Shown here one piece after another: positions 1,066 to 51,401 of a stretch of DNA of 64,000 nucleotides. Under the pieces are notes generated by a model that saw only the letters and a program-made list of their open reading frames with translations, had not been told where the DNA came from and searched no databases. Within the stretch, counting starts at the first letter, position 1. Each line of letters opens with the position of its first letter. The DNA is from Shewanella sp. 1CM18E (GTDB lineage Bacteria; Pseudomonadota; Gammaproteobacteria; Enterobacterales; Shewanellaceae). Position numbers and translations under genes: made by a program. The stretch is taken from assembly GCF_023161665.1 (NCBI RefSeq), contig NZ_JALNTW010000005.1, positions 62,001 through 126,000 of the forward strand. The letters run 5' to 3'.

Positions 1066-1236
1066 ACTATGTGCCACATAGTTGAGTTTTTTGGTTAGAC
1101 GTTGTCTAACAACTAGTTCTTATCAGGCTACGCCTGACTTAATGCAATCAAACTTCGTTTGATAATTATTTATGGGCTTCGCCCACCTTTAAGCAATCAA
1201 GCTCCGCTTGATAAAGGTCGTGAGCTTCCAGCTCAC
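1066..1236. repeat. Array of seven mini-hairpins with 3-nt loops
   Basis: Seven perfect inverted repeats follow one another, each with a 5-7 bp stem and a 3-nt loop: 1066-1082 (ACTATGT, loop gcc), 1094-1110 (GTTAGAC, gtt), 1123-1137 (TCAGGC, tac), 1147-1163 (ATCAAAC, ttc), 1173-1185 (TGGGC, ttc), 1196-1212 (ATCAAGC, tcc) and 1220-1236 (GTGAGCT, tcc). Start-to-start spacing is 28, 29, 24, 26, 23 and 24 nt. Stem sequences differ while the architecture is constant. The array lies upstream of the mltC-like gene and partly in its promoter region. Function unknown. Confidence 0.75.
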
Positions 1237-1520
1237 ACTCGGGCAAAAGGGGGACAACAGCTTCCCCCTCTTGCATCACCCTAGCCGCCCCTACGAAGTT
1301 GTTGATCCTCAGTCATTTTCGAAAATCGCTATCGCCTCACATTCGCCATCCCTGGCTCACCTGAGGCTATCTCGGCATCCATGCCTCGCTCACGCGATTT
1401 ACTTCAATGACCTCGGCAACTCCGATGGGGAACCAGTGTTTCCTGTAACTGTTGAGTTGATATTGGTCGTGCTGTGTCTTTGTATTTTTCTTTTTGTATG
1501 CCGAACGCAGAGGTTAAAAT
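1237..1520. other. Non-coding stretch between hairpin array and 232-bp repeats
   Basis: No convincing gene is visible. A 108-codon open frame (1208-1534, plus strand) runs through it but begins inside the last two mini-hairpins, has no ribosome binding site and ends in the first 232-bp repeat. It contains a G-run/C-run inverted repeat near 1247-1269 and a 12-bp palindrome ATTTTCGAAAAT at 1315-1326. Confidence 0.5.
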
Positions 1521-2180
1521 TTGTGCTTTTCTAACCTAGTGTAGATACGGCTTAGGCCTTCGAAAACATGGATGTTTTCGCAGAGCGGTCAGGGACGACG
1601 TAAAGCGTGCCTAAGAAGTGTCTGCACATACGCCGACCGCAGGTCATTGGCTGCATCAGATGTAGAAAGTCACAACAGAGGTGATTAGATACAAAAATCA
1701 GAAACAGTTAAGCTGCTGTACTTAAACGGCAGAAGCCACCATGGCCAAATGATTGTGCTTTTCTAATCCAGTGTAGATGCGGCTTAGGCCTTCGAAAACA
1801 TGGATGTTTTCGCAGAGCGGTCATGGATGACGTAAAGCGTGCCTAAGAAGTATCTGCACATGTGCCGACCGCAGGTCATTGGCTGCATCAGATGTAGAAA
1901 GTCACAATAGAGGTGATTAGATACAAAAAGCAGAAACAGTTAAGCAGCTGTGCTTAATCGGCAGAAGCCACCGTAGCTAAATGATTGTGCTTTTCTAACC
2001 CAGTGCAGATGCGGCTTAGGCCTTTGATGACATGGATGTCATCGTAGAGCTTACATGGATGTACTTGCAGCGTGCCTAAGAAGTGTCTGCACATACGCCT
2101 GCTGCAGGCAATTAGCGGCATCTGATGCAGACAGTTACCTCTGAGGGAATTCGCAACATTGCAGCACAAAGCCACACCAA
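1521..2180. repeat. Three tandem copies of a 232-bp structured element
   Basis: The phrase TTGTGCTTTTCTAA recurs at 1521, 1753 and 1985, giving an exact 232-bp period. Units 1 and 2 are nearly identical; unit 3 is diverged and truncated near 2180. Each unit can fold as a branched structure: an outer stem (GTGTAGA 1539-1545 with TCTGCAC 1621-1627), an inner stem CTTAGGC/GCCTAAG (1551-1557 with 1609-1615), and hairpins with a TGGA loop. Hairpin 1 is CGAAAACA/TGTTTTCG in units 1-2 (1561-1580, 1793-1812) but TGATGACA/TGTCATCG in unit 3 (2025-2044): both arms changed together. A later hairpin is GACC-gca-GGTC in units 1-2 and GCCTG-ctg-CAGGC in unit 3. This suggests selection on RNA or DNA structure. 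It lies between the hutI 3' end and the mltC-like gene. Confidence 0.85.
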
Positions 2181-2250: not shown

Positions 2251-3477
2251 CTATTGATGTACTAAGTGCCCATTCTTCACCACATCCACACAGGATGCTA
2301 CACCATAGGTGTAAGCTAGCTCCGCTGGTGTGCTGATATTCCACATACAGAAATCGGCTGTCATGCCGACTTCAATAACCCCAACGTTATCTTCAATGCC
2401 CAAGGCTTTGGCGGCATTGCGGGTCATGCCTGCTAACGCTTCTTCTGGGGTTAAACGCAGTAAGGTACAGGCCATATTAAGCATTAATAGGCTTGAGCAA
2501 AGTGGCGATGATCCTGGGTTGTAATCGCTGGCAACTACCATAGGCACCTTGTATTTGCGCAGTAAATCGATAGGCGGGTGCTGGGTTTCACGTAAAAAGT
2601 AAAATGCGCCGGGTAATAGTGTGGCGCAGGTACCACTTTCGCTCAGGGCTTTTACGCCGTCTTCATCTAGGTATTCAATGTGATCAACTGACTTAGCGCC
2701 TAGCTTTGCGGCTAGCGCTGAACCACCCATGTTAGATAACTGCTCTGCATGCAGCTTGATTTGCAGACCTGCGGCTTTAGCGGCTGCAAGTACGCGTTCG
2801 GTTTGCTCAAGGTTAAAGGCGATATTTTCGCAAAACACATCCACAGCATCGGCAAGATCTTCGGCAATGACTTTCGGCAGCATCTCGTTGATCACTAAGT
2901 CGACGTAGGCGTCACTATCATGTTTATATTCTGGTGGAATCGCATGTGCGCCTAAAAAGGTGGTTTTCACATCTACATGGTGATGCTTGCCTAGCTCACG
3001 GGCAACCCGCAAAATCTTCAGTTCTGTGTCGATATCTAAGCCGTAACCTGACTTGATTTCTACCGTGGTAACTCCTTCTTTAGCCAGTGCGTTCAGACGT
3101 TGACGACCAAGCTCGAATAGCTCAGCTTCATCGGCTTCACGACAGGCGTTAACGGTAGAAATAATGCCACCGCCGCTGCGGGCTATCTCTTCATAACTGG
3201 CGCCTTGCAGGCGCAGTTCAAATTCATTGGCTCGATTGCCGGCAAACACTAAATGAGTGTGGGCATCAATAAGGCCAGGGGTGATCCAGCCGCCTTTACC
3301 TTTGTAAATTGGTGTGGCGAATACATCAAACTCAGGCAGCTCACTGCGTTTACCTACCCAAGCAATTTTACCATCTTGAACCGCAAGAGCTGCGTCAGTA
3401 ATTGCGCCGTAAGGCTCTGAAATATTTGGCGACATTGTAGCGATATTGATATCTATCCAGACTTGATCCCACGACAT
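2251..3477 (-). CDS. hutI: Imidazolonepropionase
   Basis: 408 residues, the usual length. It hydrolyses 4-imidazolone-5-propionate to N-formimino-L-glutamate, the third step of cytoplasmic histidine degradation. Amidohydrolase features are visible: metal-binding HTH within [10 protein letters not shown] (about residues 73-75), KSGYGLD, HAEQLSN, a later VDHIEYLDE histidine and the [10 protein letters not shown] aspartate region. It is transcribed away from hutC-hutU-hutH, with the HutC operator in the 160-bp gap. Downstream is a terminator and then the 232-bp repeats. Confidence 0.96.
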
Positions 3478-3557
3478 GATGCAGTTCTCTTTTTGGTTGC
3501 TTTTTGCTGTATAGGAATACTAACACTAAAAATAATTTGTGAGCTAGCTTGTATTTA

Positions 3558-3571
3558 CTTGTATATACAAG
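3558..3571. promoter_or_regulatory. HutC operator (perfect 14-bp palindrome)
   Basis: CTTGTATATACAAG is a perfect palindrome 87 bp before hutI and 70 bp before hutC. It matches the HutC operator type known from Pseudomonas (CTTGTATGTACAAG-like). A degenerate half-copy, CTTGTATTTA, lies directly upstream at 3548-3557. Its position fits repression of both divergent promoters, relieved by urocanate. Confidence 0.85.
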
Positions 3572-3640
3572 CTAGGATTGTAGCCGAGTTTTTGAGCAAG
3601 TAAATAGTCAGTGACAGCTTTAGCTGCAACGGGATGGCCA

Positions 3641-4345
3641 ATGGCGAAGCCAAAATTTGAAGAAATTAAGCAATATATTTTAGCGCAAATTGAGTCTGGC
3701 GAGTGGGCTGAAGACAGTCGGGTGCCTTCTGAAAACCAGTTGTCGGAACTATTTAGTTGCAGTCGCATGACGGCACGCCGTGCATTAACGGAGTTAACAG
3801 AGTCGGGTGTGTTAGAACGCTCTCAAGGCTTGGGGACTTTCGTTGCAGGGCTTAAAACTCAGTCCTCAATGATGGCAATTCGTAATATTGCCGATGAGAT
3901 AAAAGACCGTGGCCATGGTTATAGCGTACAGCAAGTGTTGCTTACCCAAACTGTGGCAACAGGCGCGATTGCAATCGCATTGGGGCTTGAAGAGGGCAGC
4001 CAAGTGTTTCAGTCGGTGTTAGTGCATTGCGAACAAGGCACACCGCTGCAGTTAGAAGAGCGTTTTGTTAACCCTAGATTAGTGCCTGAATATTTAGACC
4101 AAGATTTTACCAAGCAAACTCCCCACGAATACTTGTCGATGGTGGCTCCGCTAACTGAGGCAAAGCACACCATTGAAGCCAAAATGGCTGATGTAGCTCA
4201 ACTGGCGCTGCTGGAAATTGCCGCTGTTGAGCCTTGTTTACAGATCACTCGCCGCACTTGGTCGCGCCAAGGTGTGGTGAGTTTTGCACGTTTAGTGCAC
4301 CCAGGAAGTCGTTTTAGATTAGGTGGTCATCTGACGTTTAGTTAG
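3641..4345 (+). CDS. hutC: Histidine utilization repressor, GntR/HutC family
   Basis: A winged-helix DNA-binding domain (about residues 1-70; SGEWAEDSRVPSENQL, then RMTARRAL as recognition helix) is followed by a UTRA-type ligand domain (about 85-230; FQSVLVHCEQGTPLQLEERFVNP). HutC represses hut genes and is released by urocanate. The start used is ATG 3641 because homologous proteins begin close to the KFEEIKQYI helix. A GTG at 3611 would add 10 residues. It is divergent from hutI and lies ahead of hutU and hutH, so it is probably autoregulated through the palindrome at 3558. Confidence 0.92.
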   Translation: MAKPKFEEIKQYILAQIESGEWAEDSRVPSENQLSELFSCSRMTARRALTELTESGVLERSQGLGTFVAGLKTQSSMMAIRNIADEIKDRGHGYSVQQVLLTQTVATGAIAIALGLEEGSQVFQSVLVHCEQGTPLQLEERFVNPRLVPEYLDQDFTKQTPHEYLSMVAPLTEAKHTIEAKMADVAQLALLEIAAVEPCLQITRRTWSRQGVVSFARLVHPGSRFRLGGHLTFS

Positions 4346-4440
4346 CGCCAGTTGCACAGCTCTTAGAGCAAAGCAGTAAATATAAAAGCTTCACAAGCAG
4401 ATAAGAAAAACATAAAAACAAATTGAACGAGGTAGTACCG

Positions 4441-6105
4441 ATGGATAAGAGACATGATCCGAGCCGCCGCATTATCGCGCCGACAGGAACCGAGCTTAGC
4501 TGCAAAAGCTGGCTGACCGAAGCCCCATTACGTATGTTGATGAACAACCTACACCCTGATGTGGCCGAGCGTCCTGAAGATCTAGTGGTTTACGGTGGTA
4601 TTGGCCGTGCGGCCCGTGACTGGGAGTGCTACGACAAAATCGTTGAAGTACTGCAACGCCTTGAAGAAGATGAAACGCTGATGGTGCAGTCTGGTAAGCC
4701 GGTTGGCGTATTCAAAACCCACAGTAATGCACCACGTGTAATCATCGCTAACTCAAACCTAGTGCCGCATTGGGCTAACTGGGAACACTTTAACGAGTTA
4801 GATAAAAAAGGTTTGGCCATGTATGGCCAGATGACGGCGGGTTCTTGGATTTATATCGGCTCACAAGGCATTGTGCAAGGCACATACGAGACCTTTGTAG
4901 CTATGGCTAAGCAGCACTTTAATGGCTCATCTGCTGGCAAGTGGATCTTAACTGGCGGCTTAGGTGGCATGGGTGGTGCGCAACCGCTAGCTGGCACTAT
5001 GGCGGGTTACTCGGTATTGACCTGTGAAGTGGATGAGACTCGCATCGATTTCCGTCTACGTACTCGTTATGTCGACAAGAAAGCCACTACCCTTGATGAA
5101 GCGTTGGCAATGATCGACGCAGCCAATAAGAGTGGCAAGCCTGTTTCTGTCGGTCTATTAGCTAACGCGGCTGACGTATTTGCCGAGCTAGTTGAGCGCG
5201 GCATTACCCCAGATGTGGTGACTGACCAAACATCGGCGCACGATCCGCTAAACGGTTACTTGCCGCAAGGTTGGACGTTAGAGCAAGCCATCGAGATGCG
5301 TAAAACTGACGAAGCGGCTGTGGTAAAAGCGGCGAAGCAGTCAATGGCGGTACAAGTTAAGGCAATGCTAGCGCTGCAAGCAGCAGGCGCGGCGACGACC
5401 GATTACGGTAACAACATTCGTCAAATGGCATTTGAAGAAGGCGTTGAAAACGCATTTGATTTCCCAGGCTTCGTACCTGCTTATGTACGTCCACTATTCT
5501 GTGAAGGTATTGGTCCATTCCGTTGGGCAGCGCTTTCTGGCGATCCTGAAGATATCTATAAGACAGACGCTAAAGTTAAAGAGCTTATTCCTGACAATCC
5601 GCACCTACATAACTGGCTGGATATGGCACGTGAACGCATTGCGTTCCAAGGTTTACCATCGCGCATCTGTTGGGTAGGTCTAAAAGACCGTGCTCGTTTG
5701 GCACTCGCCTTTAACGAAATGGTTAAAAGTGGCGAACTTTCTGCGCCAGTAGTGATTGGTCGCGATCACTTAGATTCTGGCTCTGTTGCTAGCCCGAACC
5801 GTGAAACAGAATCTATGCTTGATGGCTCTGATGCTGTATCAGATTGGCCACTAATGAACGCCCTGCTAAATACGGCAAGTGGCGCAACTTGGGTGTCGTT
5901 ACATCATGGCGGTGGTGTAGGCATGGGCTTTAGTCAGCACTCAGGTGTAGTCATTGTGGCTGATGGTACTGATGACGCGGCAGCGCGCTTAGGTCGCGTG
6001 CTGTGGAATGACCCAGCAACAGGCGTAATGCGTCACGCTGATGCGGGTTACGATATCGCTAAAAATTGTGCAAAAGAGCAGGGTCTAGACCTGCCAATGC
6101 TATAA
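4441..6105 (+). CDS. hutU: Urocanate hydratase
   Basis: 554 residues from ATG 4441, which follows a GAGGT ribosome binding site. The TTG at 4423 is less likely. It converts urocanate to imidazolonepropionate with tightly bound NAD+, the second step of histidine degradation. Visible family landmarks are the glycine-rich NAD-binding segment [14 protein letters not shown], the [15 protein letters not shown] block containing the conserved cysteine, and [16 protein letters not shown] near the C-terminus. It sits 95 bp after hutC and 40 bp before hutH in the same orientation. Confidence 0.97.
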
Positions 6106-6145
6106 GCCGCTCATACCGAGCAGTATAACAATAAGAGGCATTTAA

Positions 6146-7678
6146 ATGAGTCATTTAGTATTAACTCCGGGTACCTTAACCCTTGCACAAATCCGTGAAA
6201 TTAGCCGCGGTAAAGTCACACTAGAACTAGCCGAAAGCGCTATCGCCGACATCAACACTAGCGCAGGCTTAGTGCAGCAAGTATTGGATGAAGGCCGCAC
6301 GGTTTACGGCATCAACACAGGTTTTGGCTTACTGGCAAACACTAAGATTGCTGCTGATGATTTACAGCTGCTGCAACGCTCAATCGTATTGTCGCACGCA
6401 GCAGGTACTGGCCAATACATGCAAGACGCCACTGTGCGCTTGATGATGGTATTAAAGATTAACTCGCTAAGCCGTGGTTTCTCTGGCATTCGTTTAGAGG
6501 TGATCAACTTCCTTATCGCTTTGGTTAACGCGGGTGTTTATCCATGTGTACCAGAAAAAGGTTCAGTGGGGGCGTCGGGCGACTTAGCGCCGCTATCGCA
6601 CATGTGTTTGCCACTACTTGGCGAAGGCGAGATGAGCTATCAAGGTGAGCTAATCACTGCGGCTGAAGGTCTAGAAATTGCCGGTCTTAAGCCAATCGAA
6701 CTTGCTGCAAAAGAAGGCTTAGCCTTGCTTAACGGTACGCAAGCGTCAACGGCATTGGCACTGGAAGGCCTGTTTAACGCAGAAGATCTGTTTGCGGCAA
6801 GCTCGGTGATCGGCGCTATAAGCGTTGAAGCGGCAATGGGCAGTCGTAGCCCGTTTGATCCACGTATTCACGCGGCTCGCGGCCAAAAAGGTCAGATTGA
6901 TTCAGCTGCTGTGTTCCGTCACTTGCTTGGCGATGAGTCTGAGATCAGCCTAGATCATGTTAACTGTGAAAAGGTACAAGATCCGTATTCACTGCGTTGT
7001 CAGCCACAGGTATTGGGTGCATGTTTGACTCAAATTCGTCATGCGGCAGAAGTGTTGGGCACTGAAGCGAACGGCGTTACTGATAACCCATTAGTGTTCC
7101 AAGACACTGGCGATATTATTTCGGGCGGTAACTTCCACGCCGAGCCTGTAGCTATGGCTGCTGATAACTTGGCGATTGCGATTGCCGAGCTAGGCTCGAT
7201 TGCTGAGCGTCGTATCGCGCTACTTATCGATTCAAACTTATCTAAGCTGCCACCGTTCTTGGTTGAAAATGGCGGAGTAAATTCAGGCTTTATGATTGCG
7301 CAGGTGACTGCCGCGGCATTGGCTTCTGAGAATAAAACTTACGCTCATCCTGCATCGGTAGACAGCTTACCAACATCGGCTAACCAAGAAGATCATGTGT
7401 CTATGGCAACTTTTGCGGCACGCCGTTTACGTGATATGTCTGAAAACACTCGCGGTGTATTGGCGGTTGAGCTATTGGCGGCGGCGCAGGGCCTAGATTT
7501 CCGTGCACCACTGCAACCGAGTAAAGCCGTTGCACAGGCTAAAGGCGAGCTACGTGAGCTAGTGACTTACTACGATAAGGATCGTTTCTTCGGTCCAGAT
7601 ATCGAAGCGGCAACAGACTTGCTGCTGACCGCAAGTTACAACGCTTACTTGCCAGCAGATATCTTGCCAAGCCTGTAA
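6146..7678 (+). CDS. hutH: Histidine ammonia-lyase
   Basis: 510 residues, the normal length. It deaminates L-histidine to trans-urocanate, the first step of the pathway. The Ala-Ser-Gly triad that cyclises to the MIO electrophile is visible at residues 143-145 in [14 protein letters not shown]. The active-site tyrosine in [11 protein letters not shown] and the NGTQAS segment are also present. An AAGAGG-like ribosome binding site precedes ATG 6146. It is the last gene of the hutCUH unit, followed by an intrinsic terminator. Confidence 0.97.
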
Positions 7679-7739: not shown

Positions 7740-8056
7740 TGTCGCTTAGTGAAAATATGCTTAGGTGTTTTTTTAAGCTGACTTTGATAGAAGTCTGTTG
7801 CTGACGGAAAAGTAGCGCCAGAATATTTTTAATTAAAATTCAGAATTAAATCAACTGTATAATTTTATGTGTAATATTTAAATTGTCTAGTTGCGCAATT
7901 GATTTTGTAGGCATTTGAGTGCGCTTATGCGTGCTTTTTTTTGTTTTTTGTTTTTTGTTTTTTGTGTCGGTTTTTCTAATGAGTATTTATCGTAATTTTT
8001 TTGGTAAAATAAATGTTTTTAATTTAATGGAATAGCTAGAGGCAGGGGGCGATATA
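7740..8056. other. Gene-free AT-rich gap with T6G simple repeat
   Basis: No open frame of substance on either strand. A simple-sequence tract of T runs separated by single G (about 7935-7965) contains four G-spaced T runs. The rest is AT-rich sequence between two terminators. Confidence 0.5.
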
Positions 8057-50217: not shown

Positions 50218-50302
50218 AAAACTTTATATGTGCAGCTTTTTGACGGCAAATGTGGTCTAGAGGGTATGGTTTGTCACAGAAATACGCCTATAATCAAGGT
50301 TG

Positions 50303-50418
50303 ACGGTTCTCCGAGCTTCTTACCCTACGTCGAGACAGATACGGGTTTTTAGCCGTGGCAATAACGCCACCGGGGTGGGAAAAGAAATGATCTCACCTCC
50401 CCTTACTTGGAAAGGTGA
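50303..50418 (+). promoter_or_regulatory. Moco-type riboswitch upstream of moaA
   Basis: The leader carries landmarks of the Moco RNA motif found before moaA in gammaproteobacteria: CTCCGAG, then GCCGTGGC, CGCCACCGGGGTGGGAAA, and a terminal CACCTCCCC. The last arm TCACCT (50393-50398) pairs perfectly with AGGTGA (50413-50418), which is part of the ribosome binding site. This suggests translational control by molybdenum cofactor. The complete fold was not computed. Confidence 0.8.
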
Positions 50419-50420
50419 TC

Positions 50421-51401
50421 ATGTCCCAACTACAAGACAATTTTGGTCGACGGTTTCATTATCTGCGTATGTCAGTGACTGACGTATGTAACTTTAAATG
50501 CACCTATTGCCTCCCTGATGGCTACCGCCCAGACGGTAAGCCTAAGTTTCTTGATCTTAACGAGATTGAGAATTTAGTTTCGGCTTTCTCGCAAGTGGGC
50601 ACTCAAAAAATCCGCATTACTGGCGGTGAGCCCTCGCTGCGTAAAGACTTTACCGACATCATTCGCATCGTTAACGACAACGATAAAATCAACACCATTG
50701 CCACGACAACCAACGGTTATCGTTTAGCTAAGCACGCCCAAGAGTGGTATGACGCAGGGCTAAGACGCATCAATATTTCGGTCGATAGTTTAGATCCGAA
50801 GATGTTCTACCAGATCACCGGTGAGAATAAGTTTGATGAAGTAATGCGTGGGGTTGATGCGGCATTAGAGGCAGGCTTTGAGCGAGTTAAAATCAATGCC
50901 GTACTGCTTAAAGGCCTTAACGATAAAGACCTACCGCGTTTTTTACATTGGATTAAGAGCACGCCGATAGATCTGCGCTTTATCGAATTAATGGAAACTG
51001 GTTTAGGCCACGACTACTTCAAAGCTCACCATTTAGCGGGTAATGATATTAAGCAGCAGCTAGAGCAAGCGGGTTGGCAATTTGATACGCCAGCGCCGGA
51101 TGACGGCCCTGCTCAAAACTTCAGCCATGAAGACTATCAAGGTCGTATTGGCCTTATCATGCCTTATGCTAAAAATTTCTGTGCCAGCTGTAACCGCCTA
51201 CGGGTATCGGCTAAAGGCAAGTTACACCTTTGCTTATTCACCGAAAATGGCGTTGATTTACGCGATTTGCTGCAATCATCTGATCAACAAGCGGAATTAA
51301 TTGAACGCTTGCACGGCCAGTTAGCACAGAAAAAAGAAACCCACTTCCTGCATGATGGCATTACGGGTGTGACACAGCACTTAGCCTCAATTGGCGGCTA
51401 A
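50421..51401 (+). CDS. moaA: GTP 3',8-cyclase
   Basis: 327 residues (with GTG 50415 as a minor alternative start). A radical SAM enzyme that converts GTP to 3',8-cyclo-7,8-dihydro-GTP, the first step of molybdenum cofactor synthesis. The N-terminal cluster CNFKCTYC (about 23-30), the GGEPSLR motif and a second C-terminal cluster CASCNRLR with a third Cys nearby (HLCLF) are all visible. The last residues GG match the conserved C-terminal diglycine of MoaA. Leader is a Moco-type riboswitch. Confidence 0.95.
   Translation: MSQLQDNFGRRFHYLRMSVTDVCNFKCTYCLPDGYRPDGKPKFLDLNEIENLVSAFSQVGTQKIRITGGEPSLRKDFTDIIRIVNDNDKINTIATTTNGYRLAKHAQEWYDAGLRRINISVDSLDPKMFYQITGENKFDEVMRGVDAALEAGFERVKINAVLLKGLNDKDLPRFLHWIKSTPIDLRFIELMETGLGHDYFKAHHLAGNDIKQQLEQAGWQFDTPAPDDGPAQNFSHEDYQGRIGLIMPYAKNFCASCNRLRVSAKGKLHLCLFTENGVDLRDLLQSSDQQAELIERLHGQLAQKKETHFLHDGITGVTQHLASIGG

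Follow-up and report, generated by a model that had tools for sequence, protein, structure and literature searches.

Binding sites for CsrA, a global RNA-binding regulator, are described as generally paired since the protein is a dimer (PMC4333381), and the Rsm motif is quoted as 5'-A/UCANGGANGU/A-3' (PMC4353343). In Shewanella oneidensis, two CsrB RNAs (CsrB1 and CsrB2) are described, together with a GacA/UvrY box (TGTAAGN6CTTACA) and a putative csrC gene between mutM and SO_4727, which is reported there as transcribed (data not shown) and independent of UvrY (PMC3171408). The TwoAYGGAY RNA (RF01731), which shares Rfam clan CL00106 with CsrC and rsmX, is predicted to bind CsrA (PMC4333381).

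We compared with these systems a tandem repeat in a window of 64,000 nucleotides (G000:C37:62001-126000) from a Shewanella assembly of 4.94 Mb in 41 contigs, hereafter the own genome (G000). An earlier note on this DNA had proposed that the repeat was a structured RNA or DNA element. It made no mention of four features reported below: a second GGA-loop hairpin, a free first base in the loops, a partner on the opposite strand, and the arrangement of copies around variable genes.

Results

The array consists of three conserved cores and variable linkers

Tandem Repeats Finder (TRF) detected a single array with a period of 232 in the window, at 1521-2135, which bears out the three copies described earlier. 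Copies 1 and 2 are identical at 216 of 232 positions; by contrast, copy 3 agrees with copy 2, in an ungapped comparison, only over about the first 75 positions, because copy 3 has one additional base near position 77 and a different linker. A covariance model (R1), built from the three copies in the window and 20 other copies in the own genome, aligned all three cores end to end on the + strand (134.6-147.9 bits), and these cores were its only matches in the whole window at E ≤ 1. The 232-bp period is composed of a core of ~134 nt and a linker of ~99 bp. Thus, the period of the proposed 232-bp structured family stands, but only the core is conserved. We refer to this core as element A; it and its neighbors are as follows.

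1094..1212, − strand: row of short hairpins downstream of element B, with three-base loops of type C-GNA-G (by eye)
1282..1437, − strand: element B, a TwoAYGGAY-like arm, divergent from the A array (RF01731, 31.1 bits, below the cut-off of 43)
1521..1653, + strand: element A, core copy 1, with outer stem, a pair of NGGA hairpins and a GCA-loop third hairpin (R1, 136.0 bits)
1561..1580, + strand: hairpin 1 of copy 1, CGAAAACATGGATGTTTTCG
1585..1606, + strand: hairpin 2 of copy 1, loop CAGGGACG
1634..1646, + strand: hairpin 3 of copy 1, GCA loop
1654..1752, + strand: linker between cores 1 and 2, outside the conserved core (flank comparison, 62 loci)
1753..1885, + strand: element A, core copy 2 (R1, 134.6 bits)
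1886..1984, + strand: linker between cores 2 and 3 (TRF, flank comparison)
1985..2118, + strand: element A, core copy 3, stems diverged, fold and loops the same (R1, 147.9 bits)

The array is flanked by a lytic transglycosylase-like gene and a hutI-like gene (2251-3477), both on the minus strand and both identified by eye. We also noted short hairpins like those at 1094-1212 after many A copies and after other B copies (by eye), a run of hutI-, hutC-, hutU- and hutH-like genes at 2251-7678 (by eye), and a TTTTTTG heptamer present four times at 7937-7965.

The branched fold of the core is under selection

The repeat is a dispersed family, as had been suggested: a BLAST search of the own genome with one unit gave 25 matches, mostly to unit positions 1-130, and the unit was also found across Shewanella genomes. 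Sharing across 62 loci was wide only at about positions 0-140, and the flanks were modular. An alignment of 23 own-genome copies revealed a common fold: a two-part outer stem accompanied by three hairpins, two of them NGGA hairpins and the third closed by a GCA loop. The GGA-loop hairpin listed in the earlier note is among these, but there are two per copy rather than one, and its loop is not a constant TGGA; it is NGGA, as seen in the second hairpin of copy 1 (CAGGGACG). Two of the stem changes reported for copy 3, from CGAAAACA/TGTTTTCG to TGATGACA/TGTCATCG and from T.G to C-G in the outer stem, are indeed present. The reported change from GACC/GGTC to GCCTG/CAGGC falls in the same third hairpin, but the register of the model pairs TGCT with GGCA in copy 3, and GCCTG/CAGGC belongs to another register of that hairpin.

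We found that 94.4% of cells pair in the 23 copies, with changes on both sides in 16 of 39 pairs, and that double-change cells numbered 100, compared to 33.2 in shuffled alignments and 0-11 when the partner was slid by 1-3 columns. With 104 matches from 71 loci, in an alignment fitted to, and leaning towards, the model (the 23-copy alignment was not fitted), 93.9% of cells pair, 36 of 39 pairs display changes on both sides with pairing kept, and double-change cells numbered 805 (220 shuffled; 74-109 slid). One of five measures, the count of further pair types, was not above shuffles at n=23 but was above them at n=104. Thus, covariation, the absence of which in a wider alignment was to count against a structured element, rose as sequences were added, and double changes exceeded those in shuffles. 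Since pairing is kept through changes on both sides in 36 of 39 pairs, we conclude that the branched core fold is under selection; family-wide covariation excludes a chance origin. The folding energy of single units (z = -2.4 and -1.0) is weak evidence.

Wobble pairs were polarized, with 206 G.U and 15 A.C cells (four weak pairs left out), which identifies the + strand as drawn as the one that folds, a polarity that would hold for RNA or single-stranded DNA alike. We rejected a protein-coding origin, as only short ORFs run across the units and the changes are compensatory, and a tRNA identity, as none was found.

Both conserved hairpins carry candidate CsrA sites

In each of the 23 aligned own-genome copies, both hairpins end in a loop with the sequence CANGGANG, which is also present in the hairpin loops of 94/104 and 86/104 matches; the base before GGA there is T, G, A or C. 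Truncated or misaligned matches account for several of the loops without the motif (10/104 and 18/104), and we counted these as misses. Matches from outside the genus (L130-L141) also kept CANGGANG in most loops. The core loops fit the Rsm/CsrA motif A/U-CANGGANG-U/A by CANGGANG, the outermost A/U being outside the count. Judged by this motif, the two NGGA hairpins look like docking sites for CsrA.

A copy of element A scored 20.1 bits against RF01731, below the cut-off of 43, and element B was nearer to this family than A, although still below the cut-off (31.1 bits). Across the own genome, RF01731 gave 13 matches, all below the cut-off at 31.1-40.5 bits; conversely, R1 reached at best 10.8-19.7 bits on TwoAYGGAY loci. 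The only Rfam family over its cut-off in the window lies elsewhere, with none near the repeat: a molybdenum/tungsten cofactor riboswitch (RF01055) at 50297-50433 on the + strand (93.2 bits, cut-off 36). No CsrB, CsrC or Rsm family match was found at 1050-2300 (E ≤ 5), and a plasmid and phage search with one 201-nt query in distant mode yielded no match. We considered that the putative csrC of S. oneidensis might be a copy of A, and dropped this idea: the mutM site of G065, a genome tentatively placed near strain MR-1, has a CsrC-like stretch (19.2 bits, cut-off 61) but lacks an A match.

Copies are widespread and close opposite-strand neighbors face outward

R1 detected the element in at least 125 of 129 genomes of the genus (up to 26 candidates scored per genome) and in at least 64 of 295 genomes of the order, representing at least 16 of 99 genera (up to 11 candidates per genome). 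Six Shewanella genomes contained 52, 41, 59, 25, 39 and 73 matches (E ≤ 0.001), and seven genomes of other genera, picked for having matches, contained at least 7-75 each. TwoAYGGAY had matches in at least 95 of the 295 genomes of the order, over the cut-off in at least 65.

Pairs, single copies and tandem arrays coexist. Matches ~235 bp apart occur in four other genomes (G078, G101, G029 and G108), and ~113-bp arrays of the 3' half at the mutM site of G066 (by eye) and at L229. Among 30 relatives, the hutI 3' flank had at least one A match (E ≤ 0.1) at 14 of 30 loci; the hutI site has three copies in G000, two in G029 and one in G069. At mutM, 7 of 30 loci had an A match of >130 bits and one further locus a weak match (55.6 bits), and some relatives retain only part of the element. 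On the chromosome, 8 of 10 seemingly unpaired loci among the own-genome copies (L026-L040) point with the G-rich strand by GC skew; leading-strand bias in six other genomes, with the origin assumed, was mixed.

We tallied the orientation of neighboring copies by distance. In the own genome, a hand count of A and B matches listed less than 5 kb apart gave 14 divergent, 5 parallel and 0 convergent neighbors. Among the 150 of 289 matches listed for the six Shewanella genomes, we counted 19 divergent, 34 parallel and 0 convergent neighbors at <5 kb, 2, 14 and 3 at 5-50 kb, and 11, 30 and 31 at >50 kb. TwoAYGGAY behaves similarly: among 150 matches listed, there were 12 divergent, 12 parallel and 0 convergent neighbors within 6 kb, and 1, 14 and 4 beyond 6 kb. 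Thus, among the matches listed, close neighbors on opposite strands, whether A-A, A-B or B-B, are divergent, placed back to back or bracketing up to ~5 kb. We set aside inward-facing copies on one contig (G001:C97), which looks like an assembly palindrome because the same 581-aa gene is present twice in mirror image.

In G352, from another family, all 21 neighbors less than 1 kb apart among the matches listed were divergent, and at 1-6 kb we found 3 convergent and 1 parallel, which we read as adjacent separate units. Twenty compact units from this genome align as ~330 bp composed of an arm, a central hairpin and an arm. Several of these units (L287-L306) weakly match Yersinia Ysr224 (25-34 bits, cut-off 70), which one survey lists among its most abundant RNAs. 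We found no published account of outward-facing pairing or of an arrangement around variable genes in a full-text collection that leaves out most subscription papers.

Pairs often bracket variable genes

Shewanella pairs often enclose small genes, and at a given chromosomal site these vary from one species to the next. For example, in G029 and G069, flanking genes are syntenic (74-94% identity) and the contents mostly different. At the permease site (by eye), the own genome has an ion channel and an acetyltransferase, G066 an OLD-type ATPase and G042 a different protein of 335 aa. Other contents in Shewanella include a CAP12/Pycsar TIR protein, a DUF2971 protein, a pPIWI-associated nuclease, an AbiU2-type HEPN protein, a cyclase with a 4TM effector, and insertion-sequence genes (by eye); TwoAYGGAY pairs surround a KAP NTPase, a GmrSD-type protein, and PtuA-like and DUF2971 proteins. 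The cyclase beside the 4TM effector, between two A copies at L201 (3743-5387), is likely a CBASS pair. Some pairs (e.g. L200, L206 and L324) have no gene of ≥90 aa inside.

Proteins picked by eye gave a striking impression of defense content, which we set aside after an even-handed count: 6 of 30 inner ORFs matched defense models, compared to 2 of 30 nearest outer ORFs (E ≤ 1e-5; Fisher P = 0.25, not significant), and one of the six inner ORFs looks like an IS3 ORF. This count covered inner ORFs of ≥90 aa, chosen by hand, in 19 regions picked for having a divergent pair; ORFs overlapping an element or between parallel copies were left out, except for one in L204.

The core at the permease site of the own genome is 98% like a core at a different site in G039, compared to 84% identity between the hutI genes of the two genomes, which points to ectopic or horizontal spread. 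At four named sites, among ~50 cores compared, the closest core was at the same site for 16 of 25 and elsewhere for 9 of 25; the 16 fit inheritance or local duplication rather than movement. Site comparisons between relatives yielded no precise empty site and no target duplication.

We considered mobilization by RAYTs through PF01797, which was not supported: in the six Shewanella genomes, one of six hits lay within 3 kb of a copy among the matches listed, and the single hit in the own genome had no A copy within 1.5 kb. Diverged Y1-type transposase-like proteins were seen by eye in or beside units at L189 (4899-5906), L198 (5308-6354), L320 (2081-2608) and L328 (1256-2275), proteins that the PF01797 model would miss; the L328 protein, the sole one scanned, matched PF01797 at E = 3.7e-4, below its cut-off.

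Crude scans show no promoter excess around copies

Promoter scores around 62 copies, obtained with crude E. coli matrices, showed no excess over shuffles. A crude scan for terminator-like sites around the same copies found 6 downstream, compared to 0-2 in shuffles, and 4 upstream.

Discussion

We give an even chance to the reading that the repeat belongs, as one of two arms, to a dispersed, non-autonomous and mobile-like intergenic element, whose outward transcripts would bind CsrA. A divergent pair of arms would form a MITE- or REPIN-like unit, with cargo inside; outward transcription through an arm, for example by read-through from cargo genes of either strand, would allow the RNA to fold, and the two GGA loops of the folded arm might together bind a CsrA/RsmA dimer. 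Such an RNA could titrate CsrA or could subject the 3' part of the departing transcript to control by CsrA; we favor 3'-part control, because the crude scans gave no promoter signal, and from the promoter and terminator scans we favor read-through transcripts over dedicated small-RNA genes. The protein-binding platform proposed in the earlier note is thus kept as the best reading, with CsrA as the putative ligand. We count in favor of the two-arm reading the covariation, the wobble polarity, the CANGGANG loops, the TwoAYGGAY clan, the divergent counts, the differences in site content and the 98% ectopic core, and against it the lack of promoter excess, the terminator-like sites found upstream as well as downstream, the lack of an empty site or target duplication, the 16 of 25 same-site cores, the 3 convergent neighbors at 1-6 kb in G352, the loops lacking the motif and the non-significant defense content.

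The same arms might instead work at the level of DNA, as ends of a mobile unit that fold as single strands and are recognized by a trans-acting transposase or recombinase, as REPs are by RAYTs; in that case, GGA would be enzyme recognition bases with no role for CsrA. We think this unlikely. In its favor are the fixed divergent orientation, the compact ~330-bp units of G352, the high copy number, folding from one strand, which is possible for DNA too, and the Y1-type transposase-like proteins at the four loci above (L189, L198, L320 and L328). However, CANGGANG, with its free N and invariant GGA, matches the motif of an RNA-binding protein, and PF01797 is near a listed copy in only one of six hits, with the own-genome hit lacking an A copy within 1.5 kb.

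We consider it distinctly improbable that the arms or arrays are individual small-RNA genes for sequestering CsrA, like CsrB or RsmZ, amplified for useful dosage. Two GGA hairpins per arm, the three-copy array in the window, further tandem arrays elsewhere, and the clan that TwoAYGGAY shares with CsrC and rsmX would all suit such sponges, whereas the 62 copies have no promoter signal and a weak terminator signal around them, no CsrB/CsrC match exists at 1050-2300 of the window (E ≤ 5), and S. oneidensis already has CsrB1 and CsrB2 (PMC3171408). Finally, the repeats might not be mobile at all: old structured repeats, for example transcript 3' ends, would serve as shared homology, with cassettes swapped by homologous recombination in the flanking genes. 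Syntenic flanking genes with different contents, the 16 of 25 cores closest to a same-site core and the graded tandem number at hutI (3, 2 and 1 in G000, G029 and G069) are consistent with such exchange, but it leaves the divergence of close pairs unexplained, and for 9 of 25 cores the nearest copy sits at another site, in one case 98% alike between species; we give it very little weight.

Returning to two-arm elements with putative CsrA-binding transcripts, it is possible, though doubtful, that Shewanella and several related genera have a class of mobile gene cassettes not described before, and that TwoAYGGAY and its relatives form the borders of these cassettes: paired, facing outward and coding for RNA. 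Outgoing transcripts would then carry a CsrA-dimer site whatever the direction of the cargo, and the cassette would tie its cargo, sometimes anti-phage genes, to the global post-transcriptional regulator of the host. If our main reading is right, repeats present in dozens per genome would spread binding sites for a global regulator along the borders of rapidly changing gene cassettes. For TwoAYGGAY, an orphan RNA family listed since 2010, these results supply a genomic context and a partner that can be tested. Any Shewanella genome can serve to check the orientation rule, which is a simple one, and the arms could mark variable gene cassettes for discovery.

Among known systems, CsrB/CsrC and RsmX/Y/Z resemble element A in having several GGA hairpins thought to bind CsrA/RsmA and in belonging to the clan of TwoAYGGAY, but each is described as one gene under a GacA/UvrY-type control region (PMC3171408), whereas A is dispersed in dozens of copies, around which the scan gave no promoter signal. 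REPs and REPINs (BIMEs) and bacterial MITEs are, like A, non-coding, intergenic and multicopy, in inverted pairs of fixed orientation; however, REPs are described as palindromes of 20-40 bp with GTAG or CGTC tags (PMC3733652), while A consists of branched arms of 134 nt with putative cargo inside. For A, the PF01797 search tied no transposase to the arms, and no target duplication was seen in the site comparisons. Integron attC sites are also structured sites that bound small accessory genes. In integrons these sites are directly repeated and form an array next to an integrase, whereas A forms divergent pairs scattered over the chromosome, which argues against an integron cassette.

Compared with TwoAYGGAY, A adds a GCA-loop hairpin and has other stems, and its loops are ANGGAN, with N any base, so that AYGGAY is found only in part of the copies. 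The earlier note suggested an undescribed non-coding RNA. No Rfam family scored over its cut-off near the repeat, but the kind of element is not wholly undescribed, since A and TwoAYGGAY share the layout of a stem with two consecutive GGA-loop hairpins. The two also have in common many copies per genome, divergent close pairs, and pairs around variable genes.
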